DNA of 32,782 nt, taken from the NCBI RefSeq assembly GCF_023573145.1, contig NZ_CP097637.1, positions 1-32,782 on the forward strand, read 5' to 3'. The position numbers were made by a program, and so were the translations under genes. Under the pieces are notes generated by a model that saw nothing but the letters and a program-made list of their open reading frames with translations, ran no database searches and had not been told where the DNA came from. The stretch's first letter is position 1. Each line of letters opens with the position of its first letter. Shown here in pieces: positions 1,484 through 32,729 of this stretch. Source of the stretch: Aquincola tertiaricarbonis (lineage in GTDB: Bacteria > Pseudomonadota > Gammaproteobacteria > Burkholderiales > Burkholderiaceae_C).

Positions 1484-1932
1484 CGCCGCGCACCATCGTT
1501 CTGGATGCGAATGTGCTGATGCGCGCCGTGCTCGGCCGCAGGGTGGACCGTTTGCTGGAACGCTTTGCCTCGCAGGTGACCTTCTTGGCGCCAGAGGTGG
1601 CGTTCGAGGACGTGCAAGAGCACCTGGCCAGCGTGCTGACCAAACGCGATGAACTGAAGGCGCTGCAGCCCGCCCTTGAGAAACTGACGAAGCTCCGGCT
1701 GGTGGTGCGGGCGGTGGATCCGTCCGAGTATGAGCTCATGAAGCCGGCTGCATTGGCACGCATCGGTCCGCGCGACCCCGATGACTGGCCCATCCTGGCC
1801 TGTGCGCTTGCTGTGAACTGTCCCATCTGGACGGAAGACCGCGACTTCTTCGGCACCGGCGTTGCGACCTGGACGACAGCACTGGTCGAGCTTTACTTGG
1901 CCGGTCCGGATACAGAATCAGCAGAGCACTGA
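1480..1932 (+). CDS. PIN-domain toxin (VapC-like ribonuclease)
   Basis: 150 residues with the PIN nuclease pattern: Asp9 in VLDANVLM, Glu43 in AFEDV, Asp101/Asp102 in RDPDDWPILACAL and Asp120/Asp122 in WTEDRDF. These acidic residues bind the metal that cleaves RNA. The start is GTG, overlapping the stop of the Phd/YefM antitoxin. PIN toxins are most often paired with VapB, but pairs with Phd/YefM antitoxins are also known. It sits between hsdS and hsdR, 22 bp before hsdR, and could penalise loss of the restriction operon or of the plasmid. No frameshift or missing catalytic residue is visible. Confidence 0.85.
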   Translation: MTPRTIVLDANVLMRAVLGRRVDRLLERFASQVTFLAPEVAFEDVQEHLASVLTKRDELKALQPALEKLTKLRLVVRAVDPSEYELMKPAALARIGPRDPDDWPILACALAVNCPIWTEDRDFFGTGVATWTTALVELYLAGPDTESAEH

Positions 1933-7723: not shown

Positions 7724-8242
7724 ATGGCAAGGCTGAAGTATATTTTGGAACTTTTAGCGGCCGCCGCGACTACTTTGGCCTTGCCTTTTGGTGTGTACCA
7801 ACTATGGCAGACAAACCGCACCCTCGCGCTAGAGAGAGCAAACCAAGCGGTGTCTCATTTCCTAGGCTCCGATGAGATGCTTGAGTTGGCAAAAAGAATA
7901 AGGTCAAAAACCAACGGCGGCACCCAGTATACCGCCGACATAATGAAAGACAGCGAGTTGCGCGGCGACGTCAACAATTACCTTAACAATTTAGAGCAGA
8001 TAGCTTATTTTACCAACAAAAAGCTTTATGATTTGGAGCTGATCCAAGGGCAGCTCGCAAATATAATATACAAACAAGCAAATGTTCACCTCTTATGCAA
8101 TGATGGAAGCCTGCCTGGGGGAGAGCCATGGAAAACTTACAGCGAGTGCTCGTTTAGAAACGCCAACCAATTTCCGGAGCTGAGGAAAGTTTACAGTGCC
8201 TGGTTCCCGCACGGGAAATTTGTCGATTATTCGGATAGGTAA
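7724..8242 (+). CDS. Small membrane-anchored protein, possibly DUF4760-like
   Basis: 172 residues. An N-terminal hydrophobic helix (residues about 5-27, YILELLAAAATTLALPFGVYQLW) is followed by a soluble helical domain. This contains NYLNNLEQIAYFTNKKLYDLELI, a pattern of the kind found in DUF4760-type proteins (helical, single anchor, function unknown). The ATG at 7724 has AAGAAGGA immediately before it, closer than usual but the only good signal. The low GC matches the gene at 6025, so the two may have arrived together, although 700 bp of debris separates them. The family match is from memory of the pattern, not a search. Confidence 0.6.
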   Translation: MARLKYILELLAAAATTLALPFGVYQLWQTNRTLALERANQAVSHFLGSDEMLELAKRIRSKTNGGTQYTADIMKDSELRGDVNNYLNNLEQIAYFTNKKLYDLELIQGQLANIIYKQANVHLLCNDGSLPGGEPWKTYSECSFRNANQFPELRKVYSAWFPHGKFVDYSDR

Positions 8243-24042: not shown

Positions 24043-25818
24043 TCAAGGCGGTGCACAAAACACGTCCTCCATCGCCTGCTGCCGGCGCTCCAACTGTGCC
24101 CGGTAGTACCTGGCGGTCGTGCGCGGATCGCTCTGTCCCAGGTTCTCCTGCAGGATGTCCGGCGGCACCCCATGCTCAGCCGCCCGGGTGGCGTGGGTAT
24201 GCCGCAGCCAGTGCATCGAACTGCGCTGCACCCGCCGACGCTCAGCCTCAGGCAGCCCCGTAAACGCCTGCTTCACCAGCCGCGCAAACGCCTCGTGCAA
24301 CGCCCGGTAGCCCACCCCGCCCTCCCCGGACAGTGAGCCCAACAAGGGCGTCTCCGGCGCAGCGGTCTCCATCGTCAATCCCCGGCTGGCCAAGTACGCC
24401 CACGTAGCCCCCATCGCCGACGTCGGCACCGGCACCATACGGTTTTTGCGCCCCTTGCCGTGCACGCGCAGCACCCAGCCGCCCGGCGTAGCCTGCAGGT
24501 GCCCCACCTTTGCGCCGATCAGCTCGGCCGCCCGCAGGCCGGTGGCCGACGCAAACATGCACACCCATCGCATTCGCCGGTGCGCTGGCGTGTCGCCGGC
24601 CTGATCGAGGTAGGCGATCAGCGCCTGCCAGGCCGCCGGCGTAAAGGCCCGTGACCCTATGTCGTCTCCCTGCCCCTGCGGATCGTCGCCCAGCTTGCGG
24701 TTGACCAGCACCCACGGGTTGCTGCCCAAGTACCGCGCCTGCACCAGCCACGCAAACAACGAGTGCAAAGCCGCCAGCGCCTGCTTCTGGCTGGCCAGGC
24801 TCAACGGCCCTTTGAAGGGTGCCCAGCCCGGCGCCATCCGGTGGGCGTTATCACGAGAGATCCAGCGGTCCGGCACCTTGGCCAAGAAGTCCATGTAGGC
24901 CCGGCAGTCCTCGGCCCCCGCGTCCGACAGCGCCTTCTGGCGCTCCAGCACGCACCACAAGATGAATCGCTCGGCCTCGCGGGCATAGGCCTTCACCGTG
25001 GCCGGTGACCCCGCGCGCGCCGCGATCCACGCCTGCACGGCCTGGTGGTCGTTTTCGGCGTCGGTGCCCGTAAAACCGCCCTCCCCGCGCGGCACCCGGT
25101 TGAGGCCCTGCGCGCCGCTGTAGCGCGCCAGGCGTTCGCCGGCGGTGACCACCGGCCAGCTCGGCATCGGCGAAGCCGGTAGCAGCAGCTGGACATAGCG
25201 CGCCAGGCGCGCGGCTTTGACGGGGCCGTAGCTGGGCAAACCCAGCCACCAGCGGCCACCGCGGGCGATGCGCGCCTGCAGGTCGGCCAGCGTCAGCACA
25301 CCCAGGCGCCGCACCACCTCGGTCAACGCAGGCGCTAGCCAGCCGTCGACCAAGTCCAGCGGCGACGCCGGCTCCCCGGCCCGGGCCTCGAGCTCGCGCA
25401 GCAGCGAGCGCTGGTGCGCGCGCAAGCGCGCGTTGCGCTGCCGGCGCCGGTGCTCGCCCGGCGTCTCTTGCCCAAACCGCGCCTGGTACAGCTGCAGCTG
25501 CTCGGCCTGCGACCAGCCGTCCAGGCCTTCGGCCTGCACCCAGGCGTCCAAGGCCGGCGGATCGCCGGCCGGCTCTTCGATGCGCAACCCCACCAGGCGC
25601 CAGCGCGGATCGCCCGCCCGCCGCGCCACGGCGGCCACCCGCTCGACCAGCAGCCGGTGCGCCGAAGGCGCCTGGTTGCCGTGCTCGATGGCCAGGTAGC
25701 GCTGGGCCGACTCGGCCACCGGCACGCCTTCGGCGACCGCGCGCAGGTGCGCAAAGCAGTGCGGCCCCAAGCGCAGCGTCCTCACGTCATCGGCCACCAC
25801 GGGCGCACGGCGGGGCAT
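24043..25818 (-). CDS. Large tyrosine recombinase with DUF3701-like N-terminal domain
   Basis: 591 residues from the ATG at 25818, which has GGAGG at good distance; a TTG at 25824 would be too close to it. The N-terminal ~200 residues (LGPHCFAHLRAVAEGVPVAESAQRYLAIEHG...) fit the DUF3701 extension of some betaproteobacterial integrases. A core-binding domain (about 255-345) and catalytic domain follow: Arg in TGLRAAEL, Lys in VHGKGRKNRMVPVP, HWLRHTHAT and Tyr in ARYYRAQ. Where most relatives have LGH, it has LGQSD; this position varies in active enzymes. It may move the adjacent 46-residue-protein locus or be itself cargo. GC is high, unlike the protease next door. Confidence 0.9.
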   Translation of the reverse strand: MPRRAPVVADDVRTLRLGPHCFAHLRAVAEGVPVAESAQRYLAIEHGNQAPSAHRLLVERVAAVARRAGDPRWRLVGLRIEEPAGDPPALDAWVQAEGLDGWSQAEQLQLYQARFGQETPGEHRRRQRNARLRAHQRSLLRELEARAGEPASPLDLVDGWLAPALTEVVRRLGVLTLADLQARIARGGRWWLGLPSYGPVKAARLARYVQLLLPASPMPSWPVVTAGERLARYSGAQGLNRVPRGEGGFTGTDAENDHQAVQAWIAARAGSPATVKAYAREAERFILWCVLERQKALSDAGAEDCRAYMDFLAKVPDRWISRDNAHRMAPGWAPFKGPLSLASQKQALAALHSLFAWLVQARYLGSNPWVLVNRKLGDDPQGQGDDIGSRAFTPAAWQALIAYLDQAGDTPAHRRMRWVCMFASATGLRAAELIGAKVGHLQATPGGWVLRVHGKGRKNRMVPVPTSAMGATWAYLASRGLTMETAAPETPLLGSLSGEGGVGYRALHEAFARLVKQAFTGLPEAERRRVQRSSMHWLRHTHATRAAEHGVPPDILQENLGQSDPRTTARYYRAQLERRQQAMEDVFCAPP

Positions 25819-25904
25819 CGGCAAGAACCTCCAGCAGCCTGGCGCAGCGGCCCAGCGGGACCCTCCCGCGGCACCTAGCGCCTCGATTCAGCGAGCAAAA
25901 ACAG

Positions 25905-25932
25905 CCCGCAGATTACAACAGTAATCTGCGGG
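25905..25932 (-). terminator. Perfect 12-bp hairpin upstream of the recombinase
   Basis: CCCGCAGATTAC-AACA-GTAATCTGCGGG is perfectly paired. On the minus strand it is followed by CTGTTTTTG, fitting a Rho-independent terminator that stops leftward transcription before the recombinase gene. A recombination site is the alternative, as it lies 86 bp from the recombinase start. Confidence 0.6.
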
Positions 25933-26128
25933 TGGTCTCTACCAATATTGAAGACAGAGGGCCATAGCTGCCCGGCGGGAGGTACGAAGGACACCTACGC
26001 CAAGCTGATCCGGCTCGGAACAGTCCGTCCTCTTTTTCGTACCGATCAAGTTGGTTTTGACAGTCTTGATGCTGGCGGGTTGGAGCCGGCTCACTGCTTC
26101 GGGCTATATAGCGTTGCAGACGCTTGTA

Positions 26129-26146
26129 AGCACTAGATCTAGTGCT
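26129..26146. promoter_or_regulatory. Perfect 18-bp palindrome AGCACTAGATCTAGTGCT
   Basis: Fully symmetric about its centre. It lies about 20 bp after a possible -10 (TATATA, 26105-26110), so it is placed either as an operator at the transcript start or as the first hairpin of the leader RNA. Confidence 0.55.
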
Positions 26147-26505
26147 ATGCTTGTGCCACTGCATCGATCAAGCCGCAGCCCGTAAGCTGCCTCTTGATCG
26201 CCGCCTGCTGGCAGGCAGCAGCTCCCATACCGATTTTTTTGTCGCTTCGTGCGTCAAGGGCGCTTTGCGTCCCTTTCGACCCGAGAGGCAGCGGAGCCGT
26301 GGCCGTCTGCTGGACAGTCACTTTAGATCGCGCCCGATCGTGGAGATGAAACGGCCAAGCGCCAACTTGGCCGTTTCTGGGCAAAAGATTCCTGAACAGG
26401 TTCCAGGAGTCTCTCGAGTGCTTGTGGAAAGCGCCGCGAGTGTAGTCGCTAACACGACCCATCGCGGTCTCGAGTTCTTTGTTCGAGCCTCTCTAGAGGA
26501 GTTGC
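26129..26505 (+). ncRNA. Highly structured leader RNA upstream of a 46-residue protein
   Basis: About 375 bases with no convincing gene but successive perfect stems: AGCACTA-GATC-TAGTGCT (26129-26146); GATCAAG/CTTGATC enclosing GCAGC/GCTGC (26166-26199); GCCTG-CTGG-CAGGC (26203-26216); AAGGG-CGC-TTT-GCG-T-CCCTT within GTCG/CGAC (26241-26280); GATCG-CGCC-CGATC (26326-26339); a 12-bp stem GAAACGGCCAAG/CTTGGCCGTTTC (26348-26377); and CCTC-TCTA-GAGG (26488-26499), which hides part of the Shine-Dalgarno. GCTGCCT (26186-26192) can pair instead with AGGCAGC, giving two competing folds. A -35/-10-like pair (TTGGAG 26080, TATATA 26105) lies upstream. It could be a riboregulator or a functional RNA. 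No known class is recognised. Confidence 0.5.
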
Positions 26506-26506
26506 T

Positions 26507-26647
26507 ATGTCCAACGACATGAGCACGAGCTCGATCGAGGACGGTGAAGTCATCTACCGCATGACCATCCGCACCAAGACCGGGAAGGTGATCCGGCGAG
26601 CCAATGGCCAGCCGTTTCGCATCGTCATCCGCAAGCGGAAAGGCTAA
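26507..26647 (+). CDS. 46-residue basic protein of unknown function
   Basis: ATG at 26507 preceded by AGAGGAG at ideal spacing and followed, 12 bp after the stop, by a perfect terminator, so this is very likely a real gene despite its size. After a short acidic N-terminus it is rich in alternating hydrophobic and basic residues (EVIYRMTIRTKTGKVIRRA, then QPFRIVIRKRKG), which suggests a small beta-rich RNA- or DNA-binding fold. I recognise no family. It is the only protein encoded by the transcript carrying the structured leader, so it may bind that RNA, for example as an autoregulator or ribonucleoprotein partner. Both are inference. Confidence 0.75.
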   Translation: MSNDMSTSSIEDGEVIYRMTIRTKTGKVIRRANGQPFRIVIRKRKG

Positions 26648-26659
26648 CGGCTGAGGAGA

Positions 26660-26687
26660 GGTCCGGCGCTCGGTGCCGGACCTTTTT
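26660..26687 (+). terminator. Rho-independent terminator of the structured-leader transcript
   Basis: Perfect 8-bp stem GGTCCGGC-gctcggt-GCCGGACC followed by five T. It closes a compact unit of leader, 46-residue protein and terminator. Confidence 0.93.
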
Positions 26688-26788
26688 GCTCTGCATTCGC
26701 AGAGTCTGTGTGCTGTCGGTGCGCCTCGCCCTTCCTCAGTGCCTGTGACCACCATTGGCGCTATCGTAACAACGCGATTGCCAATAGA

Positions 26789-26893
26789 TAGCTATCATGT
26801 AGCTATCATGTAGCTATCATGTAGCTAGTTGATAGCTAATTAGTAGCTACTAGATAGCTAGTAGATAGGTTTCTAGTACCTATCCGATAGCTA
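26789..26893. repeat. Centromere-like array: TAGCTA every 11 bp
   Basis: TAGCTA starts at 26789, 26800, 26811, 26822, 26833, 26844, 26855 and 26888. The two intervening positions, 26866 and 26877, hold variants (TAGGTT, TACCTA). Ten units are thus exactly 11 bp apart, placing every site on the same face of the helix. It lies just before parA. This is the expected partition site and operator for the RHH-type ParB partner, and is probably where the segregation complex forms and parAB is repressed. Confidence 0.88.
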
Positions 26894-26926
26894 CTTGGTA
26901 TCATCAATGAAGTTATTGGAGAACCT

Positions 26927-27628
26927 GTGCCAACCATTGTTTTCGTGAGCCCCAAAGGCGGGGCGGGTAAGACCACCGCTGCGCTTGTCCTAGCCAACGA
27001 ACTGGCGAGAGGTGCTGCCGTGACAGTCATTGACGCGGACCCCAATCACCCTATCAGGAGTTGGGCAGCTGAGGCACACCCAGGCGATAACTTGACCGTG
27101 ATCTCGGATTCCGACGAGGAAAACATCCTTGACCGCATTGAGGAAGCCGCGGCCACTACGCCCTTTGTGATCGTTGACCTGGAAGGCTCCGCCGCCAAGA
27201 TCGTGCTGCTGGCGGTGAGCCAAGCAGATTTCGTGGTGGTGCCCACGCAAGGCTCTCAGCTCGACGCCGAACAGGCCAGCCGCGCACTGCGGGTCATCAA
27301 GCAGCAGGAAAAAATGTCCGGCAGGCCGGTGCCGTTCGCGGTGCTGCTCACGCGGACCAACGTGGCTATCCGCACCCGCACCATGACCCACATTCAACGC
27401 GGGCTCATTGACGCCGGCGTGCCGGTCCTCAACACCGAGCTCCATGAGCGCGAGGCCTTTCGAGCCATGTTCTCGTTCCGCCAGCCGCTTGAGAAGCTGG
27501 ACCCCAAAGAGGTTGCCAATCTGGACAAGGCGATGGCCAACGCCGAAGCCTTCGCTCAGGAGCTGGTGGCGCTGCTGCGGAAAGAGCAGGGCAGAACACC
27601 CGGCCGGACCGCTGAACAGGTGGCTTGA
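26927..27628 (+). CDS. parA: ParA-family plasmid partition ATPase
   Basis: 233 residues from a GTG at 26927 with GGAG upstream. Deviant Walker A SPKGGAGKTT (Lys10-Thr17), VIDADPN (A' motif) and FVIVDLEGSA (Walker B). It lacks an N-terminal HTH, so it is a small type Ib-like ParA that would rely on the partner for DNA binding. It moves plasmid copies apart using ATP-dependent DNA binding. The phased TAGCTA array lies immediately upstream and the partner gene follows at once. Confidence 0.93.
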   Translation: MPTIVFVSPKGGAGKTTAALVLANELARGAAVTVIDADPNHPIRSWAAEAHPGDNLTVISDSDEENILDRIEEAAATTPFVIVDLEGSAAKIVLLAVSQADFVVVPTQGSQLDAEQASRALRVIKQQEKMSGRPVPFAVLLTRTNVAIRTRTMTHIQRGLIDAGVPVLNTELHEREAFRAMFSFRQPLEKLDPKEVANLDKAMANAEAFAQELVALLRKEQGRTPGRTAEQVA

Positions 27629-27630
27629 CC

Positions 27631-27966
27631 ATGACCCGGGCAAACCCCTTCGGCGATCTTGGCGATTTCACACCGAAGTCGACGCCAAAGCCCGTCGAGC
27701 CGCAGCAGATCGAGCGCCTAGCGGCAGACAACGGATTTCCGAGCCGCCAACCGGTAGCCAAGCAGGCGCCGACGGTTGCTGCTCCTGCGCCGACGCCGGC
27801 GCGTCGCCGCTACGTGACGGGCCGCAACCGGCAAATCAACCTTAAGGCTTCGGACGAGACCATTGCCCGGTTCTACCGCTTAGCCGACGAACGCCAGGTG
27901 CCACTAGCAGAGCTGTTCGAGCTAGCCGTAGCCGCCTTGGAAGAGCAGGGGCGCCTCGAATCCTGA
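27631..27966 (+). CDS. Small ParB/ParG-like centromere-binding protein
   Basis: 111 residues from the ATG at 27631; an in-frame TTG at 27625 overlapping the parA stop would add two. A flexible Pro-rich N-terminus (about 1-65) would reach ParA. The C-terminus (RQINLKASDETIARFYRLADERQVPLAELFELAVAALE, about 70-105) looks like a ribbon-helix-helix DNA-binding fold. Its pairing with a small ParA and a phased repeat array is the usual type Ib arrangement. It should bind the TAGCTA array both for segregation and for repression. Confidence 0.78.
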   Translation: MTRANPFGDLGDFTPKSTPKPVEPQQIERLAADNGFPSRQPVAKQAPTVAAPAPTPARRRYVTGRNRQINLKASDETIARFYRLADERQVPLAELFELAVAALEEQGRLES

Positions 27967-28401: not shown

Positions 28402-28749
28402 TTATCCACAGGGCGTTGGAGTTAAACGAGTTAAGACTCTGTTAGAGGAGTTACGCAAAAACGTGGTTCTTCTAAGTCATTGATTTTACTAAAGAAAAAG
28501 CTTCTTTATCAGCCCCTCCGGTGTGTAAAAACACGAATCACGGTGGGTAAAAACACGAATCGATGGTGTGTAAAAACACGGATCTGCGTGGGTAAAAACA
28601 CGATGCTCAAGTACCCTATCAGCCCTGCTCACCTGACTCACTTTGCCGGCTCTGCAACTGCTCTCTCGGTGTGTGAAAACACGATTTTTCCTTGACAGGG
28701 TGGGTGAAAACACGAAGACTGCTACGCCATGGTGGGTGATAACACGAAG
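28402..28749. other. oriV: Replication origin: DnaA box, AT-rich zone and seven iterons
   Basis: A consensus DnaA box TTATCCACA lies at 28402-28410. GAGTTA repeats three times (near 28420, 28429 and 28449), followed by an AT-rich stretch to about 28510. Seven iterons of GGTGGGTAAAAACACGAAT type begin at 28520, 28542, 28565, 28587, 28668, 28699 and 28731. The first four are spaced about 22 bp, two helix turns. The last three have TGAAAAC or TGATAAC in the middle. The seventh begins at the G of the repA start codon, so RepA binding there should repress its own translation or transcription. Confidence 0.9.
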
Positions 28750-29802
28750 CACGCTAACGAAGCCGTTGGCGGAGATAGCCTCCGCGAGCGCTCCCCTCTC
28801 TTGCCGATCCGCCACCAGCCAGACTTCTTCGTGTGCGACGTCTTCGACGCCGCCATGAAGGGCGACACGGCGTCCATGGAACACCCCATTTTTTCCCTCT
28901 CCAAGAAGCCGGATATGAAGACCCGGCGCTACGAGAACGGCAACAGCTGGGCGGAGGTGCGCCCTGGTGCAAAGGGGCTGGCCACCGTGTTCGACCGTGA
29001 CGTGCTGATCTACTGCATCAGCCAGCTGATTGGCGCGCTCAATGCCAATCGCCCAGTCTCTCGGACCTTGCGCCTGCGCGCCCATGACCTTCTTATTGCC
29101 ACCAACCGTGACACCAGCGGTCGCGGTTACCTAAACCTGCGCGAAGCGCTCGAGCGGCTGCAGGGCACTCAGATCGCCACTAACCTCACGACCGGCGGCA
29201 AGGAAATCTTTGACCTGTTCAGCCTGATCGACCGGGCGCGCATCGTGCGCGAGACTCGGGACGGCCGAATGGAGGAAGTCGAGATCCAACTCTCGGACTG
29301 GGTGTTCCAGGCCGTGCAAGCGCAAGAGGTACTGACGCTGGATCGGAGGTACTTCCAGCTGGCAAAGCCGCTTGAGCGGCGGCTCTATGAGCTTGCGCGC
29401 AAGCACGTGGGCCAGCAGACCAGTTTCAAGATTGGCCTCGACAAGCTGCGCCTCAAATGCGGTTCCCAATCAACTCTCAAGGAGTTTCGGCGGCTCCTGC
29501 AAGCCATCATTGAAGACGATCGGAACCACGATCACATGCCAGGCTACAGCTTCGAGCTGAACGGCGACATGGTCGAGATGCGCTCTAAGAGCGGCGCGTC
29601 CCTTCGACTGCCTGGTATCTTCATCTCGCTTGATCCAGACATCCACGAAAAAGCCCGCCAGCTGGCGCCTGGCTGGGATGTGCATGCGCTGGAAAGCGAG
29701 TGGCGTGATTGGATTGTCAAAAAGGGAATCACGCCTCACCGGGCGAATGCACATTTCCTCGCCTTCTGCAAGCGCCGCGGGAAGTATCCCGGGTTCACTT
29801 AA
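28729..29802 (+). CDS. repA: RepA: plasmid replication initiator (RPA family)
   Basis: 357 residues. The family pattern (PF10134-like) is clear: FFVCDVFDAAMKGDTASMEHPIFSLSKKPD, then VFDRDVLIYCISQLIGALN, LRAHDLLIATNRDT, ALERLQGTQIATNLTTGG, and LSDWVFQAVQAQEVLTLDRRYFQLAKPLERRLYELARKHVG. It is built from winged-helix domains that bind iterons, bend the origin and recruit the host replisome. The length is normal and no break is seen. The ATG at 28729 overlaps the last iteron, arguing for autorepression. Confidence 0.93.
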   Translation: MVGDNTKHANEAVGGDSLRERSPLLPIRHQPDFFVCDVFDAAMKGDTASMEHPIFSLSKKPDMKTRRYENGNSWAEVRPGAKGLATVFDRDVLIYCISQLIGALNANRPVSRTLRLRAHDLLIATNRDTSGRGYLNLREALERLQGTQIATNLTTGGKEIFDLFSLIDRARIVRETRDGRMEEVEIQLSDWVFQAVQAQEVLTLDRRYFQLAKPLERRLYELARKHVGQQTSFKIGLDKLRLKCGSQSTLKEFRRLLQAIIEDDRNHDHMPGYSFELNGDMVEMRSKSGASLRLPGIFISLDPDIHEKARQLAPGWDVHALESEWRDWIVKKGITPHRANAHFLAFCKRRGKYPGFT

Positions 29803-29925: not shown

Positions 29926-31380
29926 GTGTTCGAACAGTCATTCAAAAACATTGACGACATCCTGCACAAGGACGCCGGCTGCACCAGCGAGCTGGACTAC
30001 ACCGAGCAGTCATCCTGGCTGCTGTTCCTGAAGTACCTCGATGCCCTGGAGCAGGACAAGGCGGCGGAGGCAGAGCTTGAGGGCAAGGCCTACAGCTTCA
30101 TCTTGGCTGAGGTTTTCCGGTGGGACAACTGGGCCGCGCCAAAGACGCCCGACGGCCGGCTGGACCACAACGCCGCGATGACCGGCGACGACCTGCGCGA
30201 CTTCGTCAACGGCAGCCTGTTCCCCTACCTGGCCGGCTTCAAGCAGCGCGCCAGCGGGCCCAACACCATTGAGTACAAGATCGGCGAGGTCTTCAGCGAG
30301 ATCAAGAACAAGATCCAGAGCGGCTACAACCTGCGCGACGTGATCGACCTGGTCGACGAGCTGCGCTTCCGCTCGCAGACCGAGAAGCACGAGCTGTCGC
30401 ACCTGTACGAAGCCAAGATCAAGAACATGGGCAACGCAGGGCGCAACGGCGGCGAGTACTACACGCCGCGCCCGCTGATCCGCGCCATGCTGCAGGTGGT
30501 GGCGCCGCGCATCGGCGAGCGCATCTATGACGGCGCCTGCGGCTCGGCCGGCTTCCTGTGCGAGGCCTTCGACTATCTCAGCAGCAAGCCGGGCCTGACC
30601 ACCGCCGACCTGCACACGCTGCAGACGCGCACCTTCTATGGCAAGGAGAAGAAGAGCCTAGCCTACGTCATCGCGATCATGAACATGATCCTGCATGGGA
30701 TCGAGGCGCCCAACGTCGTGCACGCCAACACGCTGGCCGAGAACATCGCCGACATCCAGGACAAGGACCGCTACGACGTGGTCCTGGCCAACCCGCCCTT
30801 TGGCGGCAAGGAGCGCAGGGAGGTGCAGCAGAACTTCCCGGTCAAGACCGGCGAGACTGCCTTCCTGTTCCTGCAGCACTTCATCAAGAGCCTGCGCGCT
30901 GGTGGCCGGGCGGCCATCGTCATCAAGAACACCTTCCTGAGCAACACCGACAACGCCAGCGTGAGCCTGCGCCGCCAGCTGCTGGAGGGCTGCAACCTGC
31001 ACACGGTGCTGGACTGCCCGGGCGGCACCTTCCAGGGTGCGGGCGTGAAGACCGTGGTGCTGTTCTTCGAGAAGGGCGCGCCCACGCGCCGGGTCTGGTA
31101 CTACCAGCTCGATCCCGGGCGCAGCCTGGGCAAGACCACGCCGCTGAACGATGACGACCTAGCAGAGTTCATTGCGCTGCAGAAGACGTTTGCTGACTCC
31201 ACCAAGAGCTGGTCGGTGGACGTGGCCGACATCGACGCTGGTACCTATGAGCTGTCGGTCAAGAACCCGAACGGCGGCACGGTGGTCACGCTGCGCACGC
31301 CCAAGGACATCCTCGATGAGATCGCGGTGCTGGATGCCGAGAGCGCTGGCGCTCTGGAGACGATCCGGGGGTTGCTTTGA
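29926..31380 (+). CDS. hsdM: HsdM: type I DNA adenine methyltransferase subunit
   Basis: 484 residues from a GTG at 29926. An N-terminal helical domain (FEQSFKNIDDILHKDAGCTSELDYTEQSSWLLFLKYLDALE) is followed by the methylase core: motif I DGACGSAGF (from Asp202) binds S-adenosylmethionine and motif IV NPPF (289-292) marks N6-adenine methylation. The C-terminus contacts HsdS. The stop overlaps the hsdS start (TTGA). Without HsdS the enzyme has no target, so the host would be unmodified at this system's sites. Confidence 0.93.
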   Translation: MFEQSFKNIDDILHKDAGCTSELDYTEQSSWLLFLKYLDALEQDKAAEAELEGKAYSFILAEVFRWDNWAAPKTPDGRLDHNAAMTGDDLRDFVNGSLFPYLAGFKQRASGPNTIEYKIGEVFSEIKNKIQSGYNLRDVIDLVDELRFRSQTEKHELSHLYEAKIKNMGNAGRNGGEYYTPRPLIRAMLQVVAPRIGERIYDGACGSAGFLCEAFDYLSSKPGLTTADLHTLQTRTFYGKEKKSLAYVIAIMNMILHGIEAPNVVHANTLAENIADIQDKDRYDVVLANPPFGGKERREVQQNFPVKTGETAFLFLQHFIKSLRAGGRAAIVIKNTFLSNTDNASVSLRRQLLEGCNLHTVLDCPGGTFQGAGVKTVVLFFEKGAPTRRVWYYQLDPGRSLGKTTPLNDDDLAEFIALQKTFADSTKSWSVDVADIDAGTYELSVKNPNGGTVVTLRTPKDILDEIAVLDAESAGALETIRGLL

Positions 31381-31503: not shown

Positions 31504-32349
31504 TCAGACGGTCGCGGCCTGACCAGCGCGTTGTCGATGGTAGTTGGCCTCGAACTCGGCCGGCGGGATGTAGCCCATGGGCTCCATCAGTCGATGGTGG
31601 TTGAACCAAGCCACCCATTCCAGCGTCGCCAGTTCCACCGCTTGCTTGGTCTTCCAGGGCCCCCTCCGGTGGATGACCTCGGCCTTGTAGAGCCCGTTGA
31701 TGGTCTCGGCCAGGGCGTTGTCGTAGCTGTCGCCCTTGGACCCCACTGAGGGCTCAATGCCGGCCTCGGCCAAGCGCTCGCTGTAGCGGATGGACAGGTA
31801 CTGCGACCCGCGGTCCGAGTGGTGCACGAGGCCATCACCTTCGGTCGGCTTGCGGTCGTACAGCGCCTGCTCCAGCGCGTCGAGCACGAACTCGGTGTGC
31901 ATCGAGCTGCTCTGGCGCCAGCCCACGATGCGCCGGCTGAACACGTCCACCACGAACGCCACATAGACCCAGCCCTGCCAGGTCGACACGTAGGTGAAGT
32001 CCGAGACCCACAGCTGGTTGGGCCGCTCGGCACGGAACTGCCGGTTGACCCGGTCCAGCGGGCACGGTGCCTTGAGGTCCGGAACGGTGGTGCGCACGGC
32101 CTTGCCTCGGCGCACGCCCTGCAGGCCTTGCTGACGCATCAACCGTTCGACGGTGCAACGGGCCACCGCCACGCCCTCGCGTTTGAGCTGGCGCCAGACC
32201 TTGTCAGCGCCGTAGACCTGCATGTTGGCCTGCCACACGCGCTGGACCTCAAGCACCAGGCACGCATCCCGCTGTGCGCGACGCGAGCGCAGCGCCGGGT
32301 TGCGCTGACGGGATGCATGGCGCCAATAGGCCGACGGGGCGATCTGCAA
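31504..32349 (-). CDS. IS3-family transposase OrfB (DDE catalytic part)
   Basis: 281 residues as an open frame from a TTG at 32349. The frame is open further upstream ([31 protein letters not shown]) to overlap the end of orfA. Catalytic residues: Asp in WVSDFTYV, Asp in HHSDRGSQY and Glu in [15 protein letters not shown]. OrfB normally appears as an OrfAB fusion made by a -1 ribosomal frameshift. The five-T run at 32443-32447 (GTTTTTC on the coding strand) is the likely slip point, and the -1 frame from there leads straight into OrfB. An upstream HTH_21-like part ([14 protein letters not shown]) is present. Confidence 0.92.
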
Positions 32350-32405
32350 GACGCGGCAGATCGACTCGACCCCGAACTCCTGGCGATGCCGGTCGACGAA
32401 GGCCT

Positions 32406-32729
32406 TCAGGACTTGAGGCGGCGGTCGAGCTCCGCCTGGGCGAAAAACGCGCTGGCCAGCTTCAGGATCTCGTTGGCCTTGCGCAGTTCACGCACCTCGC
32501 GCTCGAGCTCCTTCACGCGCTCGGCCTCGCTGGTCGTCACGCCTTCTCGCACGCCGGCATCGACCTCGGCGCGCTTGACCCATTCGTTCAGCGTCTGCGG
32601 CACGCAGCCAATCTTGGGCGCGATGGACTCGATGGCCGCCCACAGCGACGGGTACTCCCCTCGGTGCTCCTGCACCATCCTCACCGCGCGCTCACGCACC
32701 TCGGGCGAGAACTTGTTCGACTTGCTCAT
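32406..32729 (-). CDS. IS3-family transposase OrfA (DNA-binding part)
   Basis: 107 residues from the ATG at 32729, with GAGAGGA upstream. An HTH ([49 protein letters not shown]) is followed by a leucine-zipper-like helix ([35 protein letters not shown]). It recognises the inverted repeats. It ends 22 codons or so before the OrfB core and supplies its N-terminus through frameshifting. Confidence 0.93.

Follow-up and report, generated by a model that had tools for sequence, protein, structure and literature searches.

A conserved pseudoknotted leader RNA and its small basic protein on a putative plasmid of Aquincola tertiaricarbonis

Does the DNA between a recombinase gene and a partition gene of Aquincola tertiaricarbonis hold a genuine RNA-protein unit, where are its borders, and how might it work? 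The original prediction, made from the sequence, placed here a compact unit of a structured 375-nt leader, a 46-residue basic protein and a perfect terminator, and could match it to no known riboswitch, type III toxin-antitoxin system or retron. The window, i.e. the whole stretch of DNA analysed, is an entire 32,782-bp contig in a four-contig, 7.1-Mb genome. Going by its replication and partition genes, the contig looks like a plasmid. The unit is flanked by a tyrosine recombinase gene and the ParA gene:

24043-25824, minus strand: tyrosine recombinase
26927-27625: VirC1/ParA-type ATPase (Pfam scan)
27625-27963: short protein with a ribbon-helix-helix match slightly below the cut-off (Pfam scan)
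28729-29799: replication initiator (Pfam scan, PF10134, E 1.2e-82)

Directly before the ParA gene, positions 26776-26900 are dense in TAGCTA/GATAGCTA repeats, perhaps a centromere (parS) or an iteron array. Just upstream of the recombinase gene, at 25905-25932, the minus strand has a 12-bp perfect hairpin and a T-run, where a transcript from this strand would end before reaching the gene. Type I restriction methylase and specificity genes (29926-31380 and 60-1163), with an IS3-type element between them, appear to cross the contig ends. An ALIL pseudoknot within the IS3-type element (32335-32451) is the sole Rfam match in the window at the gathering threshold.

A leader fold under selection and its conserved small protein

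A scan of viral contigs with the 64-codon open frame as query gave 11 loci. With an eight-sequence alignment as query, we found 13 viral-contig loci, 11 of them on contigs found earlier, and 23 loci in genome contigs: 11 in Pseudomonas, two in Burkholderiaceae MAGs, two in Pandoraea, one each in a Vitreoscilla-labelled MAG, Thiobacillus, Trinickia, Caballeronia, Cupriavidus and an Alistipes-labelled MAG, and two distant members (L056, L057). The 38 ORFs collected encode basic proteins of 39-48 aa with the consensus core VIYRMTI..K.GKVIRR.NGQPFRIV.R; the positions that are invariant or at least 90% conserved in the family alignment read VIY.MTI..K.G..IRR..G.PFRIV.R. The 46-residue basic protein proposed originally is therefore the product of a gene conserved across homologues in viral and genome contigs. 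It has no match in Pfam or PADLOC and weakly matches phrog_4533, a family of unknown function (E 1.9e-4); NCBIfam gave a single marginal match, to one member of the family (E 0.063). AlphaFold2 predicts two strands for the 46-aa protein, with core 10-residue blocks at pLDDT 97 and 94 and a low-confidence N terminus, and a fold search of this model against the PDB and viral models returned nothing at E <= 0.001.

The family is rare. One of 399 genomes of the order carries the protein, and this is the window's own genome; in a sample of the phylum, two of 398 genomes have a protein match, the own genome and G659, whose match (E 4.6e-5, inside a 253-aa frame) was judged dubious and left unused. 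The family protein is absent from PLSDB plasmids, and the plasmid and E. coli DNA collections gave no match either; records very near the own genome may be missing from all of these collections. Among phage records, only Achromobacter phage CF418P1 (L006) is convincing, and a Streptomyces phage match (E 0.7) was set aside. The annotated CDS of CF418P1 at 7935-8156 lies on the strand opposite to the conserved small ORF and is a probable mis-call.

When the upstream DNA of the homologues was aligned, conservation proved to cover ~160 nt ahead of the start codon; the conserved block starts with the 12-bp hairpin and leaves the promoter out. The leaders form two clades: TK (the window, Pseudomonas, L040, L042, L047, L048 and the Alistipes-labelled L050) and phage, in which stem P2 is longer and interrupted. 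The unit has the following features, all on the plus strand:

26348-26506: conserved structured leader RNA as a whole (matched over 26348-26509, E 3.3e-5 in 498 kb, by the phage-clade-only covariance model R2)
26348-26359 / 26366-26377: HP1, a 12-bp hairpin (changes on both sides in 9/12 pairs, 13 leaders)
26387-26394 / 26404-26411: stem P2 with a 9-nt loop (both-side changes in 5/8 pairs; 95.1% of cells paired)
26398-26403: 5' strand of the pseudoknot, AGGTTC, in the P2 loop (100% of cells paired in 13 leaders, with 9 distinct strand combinations)
26413-26418 / 26469-26474: stem P3 (both-side changes in 4/6 pairs)
26420-26432 and 26445-26458: P4 and P5, weaker hairpins inside P3, which pair poorly on one alignment (A3)
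26485-26490: 3' strand of the pseudoknot, GAGCCT, just upstream of the ribosome-binding site (covariation in both clades)
26495-26500: ribosome-binding site AGAGGA, from the sequence
26507-26647: 46-aa basic protein of the conserved family (46 codons)
26659-26687: intrinsic-terminator-like hairpin of 9 bp with a 7-nt loop and a T run (inverted repeat 26659-26667/26675-26683)

The predicted 12-bp stem is present as the perfect hairpin HP1. Across 13 of the 17 TK leaders (the near duplicates L036, L037, L043 and L045 were omitted), 94.3% of the cells in HP1, P2, the pseudoknot and P3 are paired, and 21/32 pairs have changed on both sides; the covariation score is 0.411, versus 0.171 when shuffled and at most 0.137 with slid partners. 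The phage clade (14 of 19 leaders, with L006, L027, L029, L031 and L032 omitted) scores 0.392 versus 0.228 when shuffled. In this clade one of five measures (further pair types) is not above the shuffles, HP1 is poorly aligned with 69% of cells paired, and P5 has double changes in 5/6 pairs, yet 71% of cells paired. RNAalifold, predicting on its own, finds P2 and P3 in both clades; HP1 appears in part in the TK clade and is missing in the phage clade. The alignments also hold conserved unpaired segments. The leader fold is under selection, and RNA and ORF are both conserved. The original prediction had made its claim depend on stems being conserved with compensatory changes; they are, so the claim of a compact unit of folded RNA and small basic protein survives. 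The family search that it proposed likewise left the leader without an Rfam match: at a permissive threshold, Rfam 15 gave for the window one antisense match, below its cut-off, and nine relative loci gave one radC and five tRNA matches, none at the leader.

Two observations concern the clades. In the phage clade, the apex of HP1 often carries GCGCCAA or, depending on the locus, its reverse complement or a close variant (TTGGCGC, TTAGCGC; e.g. L025 3823-3860, L028 3811-3850). This resembles a DNA-level or invertible motif more closely than an RNA loop. In 13 of the 16 distinct TK-clade proteins (e.g. L046 3965-4108), Q-[LIQAK]-[DE]-[ML]-F stands near the N terminus and resembles the sliding-clamp-binding motif, QL[SD]LF; it is missing from the window protein, L039, L050 and the phage-clade proteins.

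The pseudoknot, absent from the original prediction, is the best-supported long-range element. In a partner-swap test, 0 of 5000 swaps pair as well in each clade, and 89.8% of the pseudoknot cells of the phage clade are paired. G-U outnumbers A-C in the pseudoknot cells of the TK clade (19 versus 9), which favours the plus strand as the RNA; the nearly equal numbers of the phage clade (26 and 25) make the strand test uninformative there. As for the predicted stem hiding the ribosome-binding site, it is present in the window but weak, since its 4 bp are equalled by 41/100 shuffles. Such a stem is clear in 5/13 TK leaders and sporadic in the phage clade, and a generally conserved masking hairpin was rejected on the leaders of both clades. 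The perfect terminator was found as the 9-bp inverted repeat followed by T's; a simple terminator scan does not list it. A terminator-like hairpin often stands behind the small ORF in the relatives, and no separate terminator was seen between the leader RNA and the ORF.

How tightly is the RNA coupled to the ORF? We used two covariance models, R1 from the TK clade and R2 from the phage clade, the E-values of both being rough. R1 matches the leader of 7/19 phage-clade loci, all outside its training set (best E 3.1e-10; 12 missed), and R2 matches 13/17 TK-clade loci (best E 1.9e-9; L035, L042, L047 and L048 missed). R1 also matched the reverse strand over the palindromic HP1, with E down to 9.4e-5, and gave a further match at E 0.71; hence, matches near E 1e-4 count mainly by their right place and strand. 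With the model of its own clade, an RNA match precedes 36 of the 38 family ORFs and ends at the start codon or at most 11 nt from it. These comprise 17/17 TK loci (R1; 13 training) and 19/19 phage-clade loci (R2; 14 training), so that 27/36 are training sequences; the distant protein relatives L056 and L057 gave no match with R1 or R2. The RNA precedes the ORF in all relatives close enough to align. Because the loci were collected via the protein, an RNA lacking the protein would mostly be missed. A DNA pattern scan of viral contigs gave 46 stretches, of which only 4 carried the RNA or the protein, all of them already known loci that have both, and a second pattern gave none. L081 (E 0.25) was set aside, and a DNA match of only 32 bases at L004 (G057) was dropped. 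That 26348-26647 is a conserved RNA-protein unit is, in our judgement, close to certain.

A putative nrdA-type promoter upstream of the conserved RNA

The 377 nt at 26129-26505 fold better than 100/100 shuffles (z = -4.35). Of the 375-nt structured leader predicted originally, 26348-26506 is conserved among homologues, but the first ~200 nt lie outside the conserved RNA. Taking the whole 375 nt as one structured RNA is unsupported, since these ~200 nt open with a promoter and leader of the nrdA kind, and no relative was found for what follows in them. Positions 26129-26191 share 84% identity over 63 bases with the promoter and leader start of the host's chromosomal class I nrdA (identified by reading its coding sequence), and 26131-26191 share 82% with those of a same-genus genome. 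The features of this part are:

26104-26113, or 26102-26111 in the other register, plus strand: degenerate NrdR-box-like site CTATATAGCG (sequence and nrdA promoter alignment)
26124-26151, plus strand: putative promoter TTGTAA - 16 nt - TATGCT, with 8/12 consensus bases; the palindrome fills its spacer in an operator-like manner
26129-26146, no strand assigned: perfect 18-bp palindrome CACTAGATCTAGTG, NrdR-box-like
26165-26200, plus strand: leader hairpin resembling the host nrdA leader hairpin, outside the conserved RNA (15-nt stem 26165-26179/26186-26200, 87%)

The 18-bp palindrome noticed originally is perfect. The possible promoter can be read as well but is weak, and with 8/12 consensus bases the consensus scan does not list it. 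CACTAGATCTAGTG occurs without mismatch at two places in the 7.1-Mb genome, in the unit promoter and before nrdA, where it holds the same place before TATGCT. Measured between centres, the palindrome and the degenerate second box upstream of it are 29 or 31 bp apart, depending on the register; in nrdA the second box is 31 bp upstream. The core consensus of the NrdR box is CwAtATaTwG. NrdR boxes are described as 16-bp palindromes (PMC4409342). NrdR is described as binding box pairs with spacers of 14-17 bp and also 24-27 (PMC12051234), the two boxes of a bound pair being separated by some three helix turns (PMC9110341). The genome has an NrdR gene (TIGR00244, E 1.7e-54). Given the palindrome shared with nrdA and the NrdR gene, the plasmid copy is probably under nucleotide-pool control via a putative NrdR operator. 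Among 17 upstream regions aligned, the nrdA-type promoter is found in the window only.

Compared with the host nrdA leader (L002 ~1491-1527, minus strand), 26165-26200 has by inspection several compensated pairs (GGTGAGG/CCTCACC versus GATCAAG/CTTGATC). On three sequences, in the third of which (L003) the outer stem pairs poorly, this suggests that the hairpin of nrdA leaders may be functional. The mutually exclusive stems of the original prediction exist in so far as 26186-26194 can also pair (9 bp) with 26284-26292, but one arm falls in a stretch without relatives: ~26200-26345 is unmatched elsewhere in the own genome, in 120 related genomes and in PLSDB, and its stems may be incidental.

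Genomic neighbourhoods of the relatives

Of 23 phage-type and beta-proteobacterial loci, 21 have an ORF of at least 156 aa with the start of the RNA -2 to 27 nt after its stop (ORFs chosen mechanically; the Alistipes-labelled locus included and L031 left out). The upstream genes scanned encode M78 (ImmA/IrrE-type) peptidases in L025, L034 and L050, with L028 below the cut-off, an AAA ATPase in L022 and a DUF5343 protein in L040 (PADLOC candidate PDC-M34A); for those of L042, L047 and L048, no Pfam match exceeds the cut-off. In L006 and L051, an HTH-M78 fusion gene one step further up matches PD-Lambda-2_B (E 4.2e-49 and 2e-45), and a gene of 161 or 159 aa, respectively, lies between it and the RNA-protein unit. 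Neither this 161-aa gene of L006 nor the 95-aa gene before its HTH-M78 gene matches a PADLOC or Pfam family.

In Pseudomonas, a divergent WYL-type regulator lies upstream in 9/11 loci (L035 scanned, the rest recognised by the same N-terminal sequence). At 33-77 nt downstream, four Pseudomonas loci carry a ThsB-like TIR protein (L041 scanned, E 1.5e-125; L043, L044 and L046 by sequence) and four a beta-flower protein (L035 scanned; L036, L037 and L045 by sequence), and in L038 a pPIWI-associated nuclease match lies 390 nt downstream. Several scanned neighbours match no family. All these tallies refer to the scanned subset of neighbours and are plain counts without a random-locus baseline. No reverse transcriptase, the hallmark of retrons, was found among the neighbours scanned, the RT-TIR matches falling on the TIR part. 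None of the eight window proteins scanned with Pfam gave a PD-lambda-2 or Thoeris match. Judging from the gene matches of the relatives, the module recurs at defence-type loci in Pseudomonas and in prophages.

Possible modes of action and known systems

We suggest, at roughly even confidence, that the unit is a mobile, defence-associated module in which a small RNA-binding protein is under the control of its pseudoknotted leader, with autoregulation the probable mode. The mechanism and function that we infer are as follows. The ~160-nt RNA would act on the small gene in cis, as its 5' leader, and, because the 3' strand of the pseudoknot adjoins the ribosome-binding site, formation or breakage of the pseudoknot would set translation of the small ORF. 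The basic protein would bind the pseudoknot, repress its own synthesis and act on something else too. In the relatives, the module would form part of anti-phage or toxin-antitoxin-like loci whose regulators are of the stress type (HTH/M78 peptidase, WYL). The nrdA-type, NrdR-box promoter would tie expression of the plasmid copy to nucleotide pools, so that it would be made when these signal active or troubled DNA synthesis. Against autoregulation speak the size of the RNA, which exceeds what simple autoregulation would need, and the finding that no hairpin masking the ribosome-binding site is conserved throughout the leaders.

A fold larger than a simple operator would suit a trans-acting ribonucleoprotein, for which the RNA would be excised from the transcript and joined by the small protein as its dedicated partner; the target might be, e.g. 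the ribosome, polymerase, the sliding clamp or phage RNA, and the role that of a defence accessory. The location of the RNA directly after the stop of another ORF in most phage-type and beta-proteobacterial loci makes a processed trans-acting RNA possible also, and the adjacency of RNA and protein in 36/38 loci, the conserved unpaired RNA segments and the confidently predicted core of the basic protein argue in the same direction. A cis leader would be expected to have the 3' pseudoknot strand next to the ribosome-binding site, which is where it lies, and no separate terminator is seen between RNA and ORF; we consider the trans-acting ribonucleoprotein, the main rival to autoregulation, rather unlikely. 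A bolder proposal, possible though doubtful, is a new class of ribonucleoprotein linked to defence, in which one mobile cassette would hold a pseudoknotted RNA together with its dedicated beta-strand protein of 40 residues. It would serve as a shared sensor or licensing module in unrelated immune operons (HTH-M78/PD-lambda-2-like, WYL with Thoeris-type TIR, DUF5343, pPIWI-associated nuclease) and be rewired on the plasmid to the nucleotide sensor NrdR.

The toxin-antitoxin-like or defence neighbours (the PD-lambda-2B-like and ThsB-like genes above) and a pseudoknotted RNA that precedes its protein on mobile elements would also be expected of a toxic small protein restrained by RNA, whether the RNA binds it as a type III-like antitoxin or, as in tisB, is a leader that limits its translation. 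Type III toxin endoribonucleases measure ~150-180 aa. The protein here, basic and of 39-48 aa, is neither such an enzyme nor a hydrophobic peptide, its RNA is single-copy without tandem repeats, and no terminator is seen before the ORF, all of which makes restraint of a toxin by the RNA improbable. Still less probable is a riboswitch-like leader that senses a ligand or infection, with a small molecule or stalled translation or transcription opening translation: a compact multi-helix pseudoknot with conserved single-stranded segments adjoining the ribosome-binding site fits it, but the same protein family stands behind the RNA in 36/36 loci (collected via that protein), whereas riboswitches usually control varied metabolic genes, and no Rfam riboswitch matches. 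A chance-folded leader copied from the nrdA promoter before a random ORF is scarcely credible. It would explain why 26129-26191 resembles that promoter, but the ORF is conserved and 26348-26506 covaries in distant relatives whose upstream DNA lacks an nrdA-promoter alignment; for 26348-26647 chance folding is refuted by ORF conservation and covariation.

Were the ribonucleoprotein reading true, this would be a new kind of system. The unit combines a covariation-supported fold without an Rfam entry with a tiny family without a Pfam or convincing NCBIfam entry, at defence-type loci; it supplies a concrete RNA component for loci where annotation covers proteins only, and one case of such a module behind a ribonucleotide-reductase-type operator. 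No description of the leader RNA or the small protein was found in the literature searched, with preprints and most subscription journals outside its scope.

PD-lambda-2 is touched at L006 and L051, where the unit lies one gene behind the HTH-M78 gene matching PD-Lambda-2_B. This anti-phage, toxin-antitoxin-like system consists of three protein components, a HigB-like protein, an HTH-peptidase and a third component, and the part of its description available mentions no RNA or 40-aa protein (PMC9519451). Type III toxin-antitoxin systems (ToxIN, CptIN) have a pseudoknotted RNA encoded directly upstream of the protein partner and are linked to phage defence (PMC4627078, PMC5086642, PMC5772629). 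The unit shares this order, the pseudoknot and the link to phage defence. Unlike these systems, its RNA is ~160 nt long and single-copy (no direct repeats of at least 12 nt in 26340-26510; each locus has one full leader match), its pseudoknot reaches over a long range to the side of the ribosome-binding site, its protein has 39-48 aa and no Pfam match, and no terminator is seen before the ORF. Nor does the 46-aa protein match a ToxN/CptN/TenpN-type endoribonuclease in Pfam, PADLOC or the fold search (E <= 0.001).

TisB, a hydrophobic membrane peptide, has an antisense RNA, and tisB is stress-induced through promoter control. The pseudoknotted mRNA leader of this tiny protein sets translation by standby (PMC7708055). 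Our unit resembles tisB in having a tiny protein behind a structured, pseudoknotted mRNA leader, but its protein is basic with predicted beta strands and its RNA fold is conserved across genera. In the autoregulated leaders of ribosomal proteins S15 and S4, a small basic RNA-binding protein meets a pseudoknot near its own ribosome-binding site. The unit likewise has a pseudoknot near the ribosome-binding site before a small basic protein; unlike S15 and S4, this is no recognised ribosomal protein, no Rfam leader matches, and the loci are mobile and defence-type. The unit promoter also resembles NrdR-controlled ribonucleotide reductase promoters in its host nrdA operator layout, but the gene behind it encodes no reductase. 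Overall, the unit lies outside all Rfam RNA families and, by the features tested, outside type III toxin-antitoxin systems, and by analogy it would work most like the structured leader of a small stress protein, as in tisB and the ribosomal-protein leaders.
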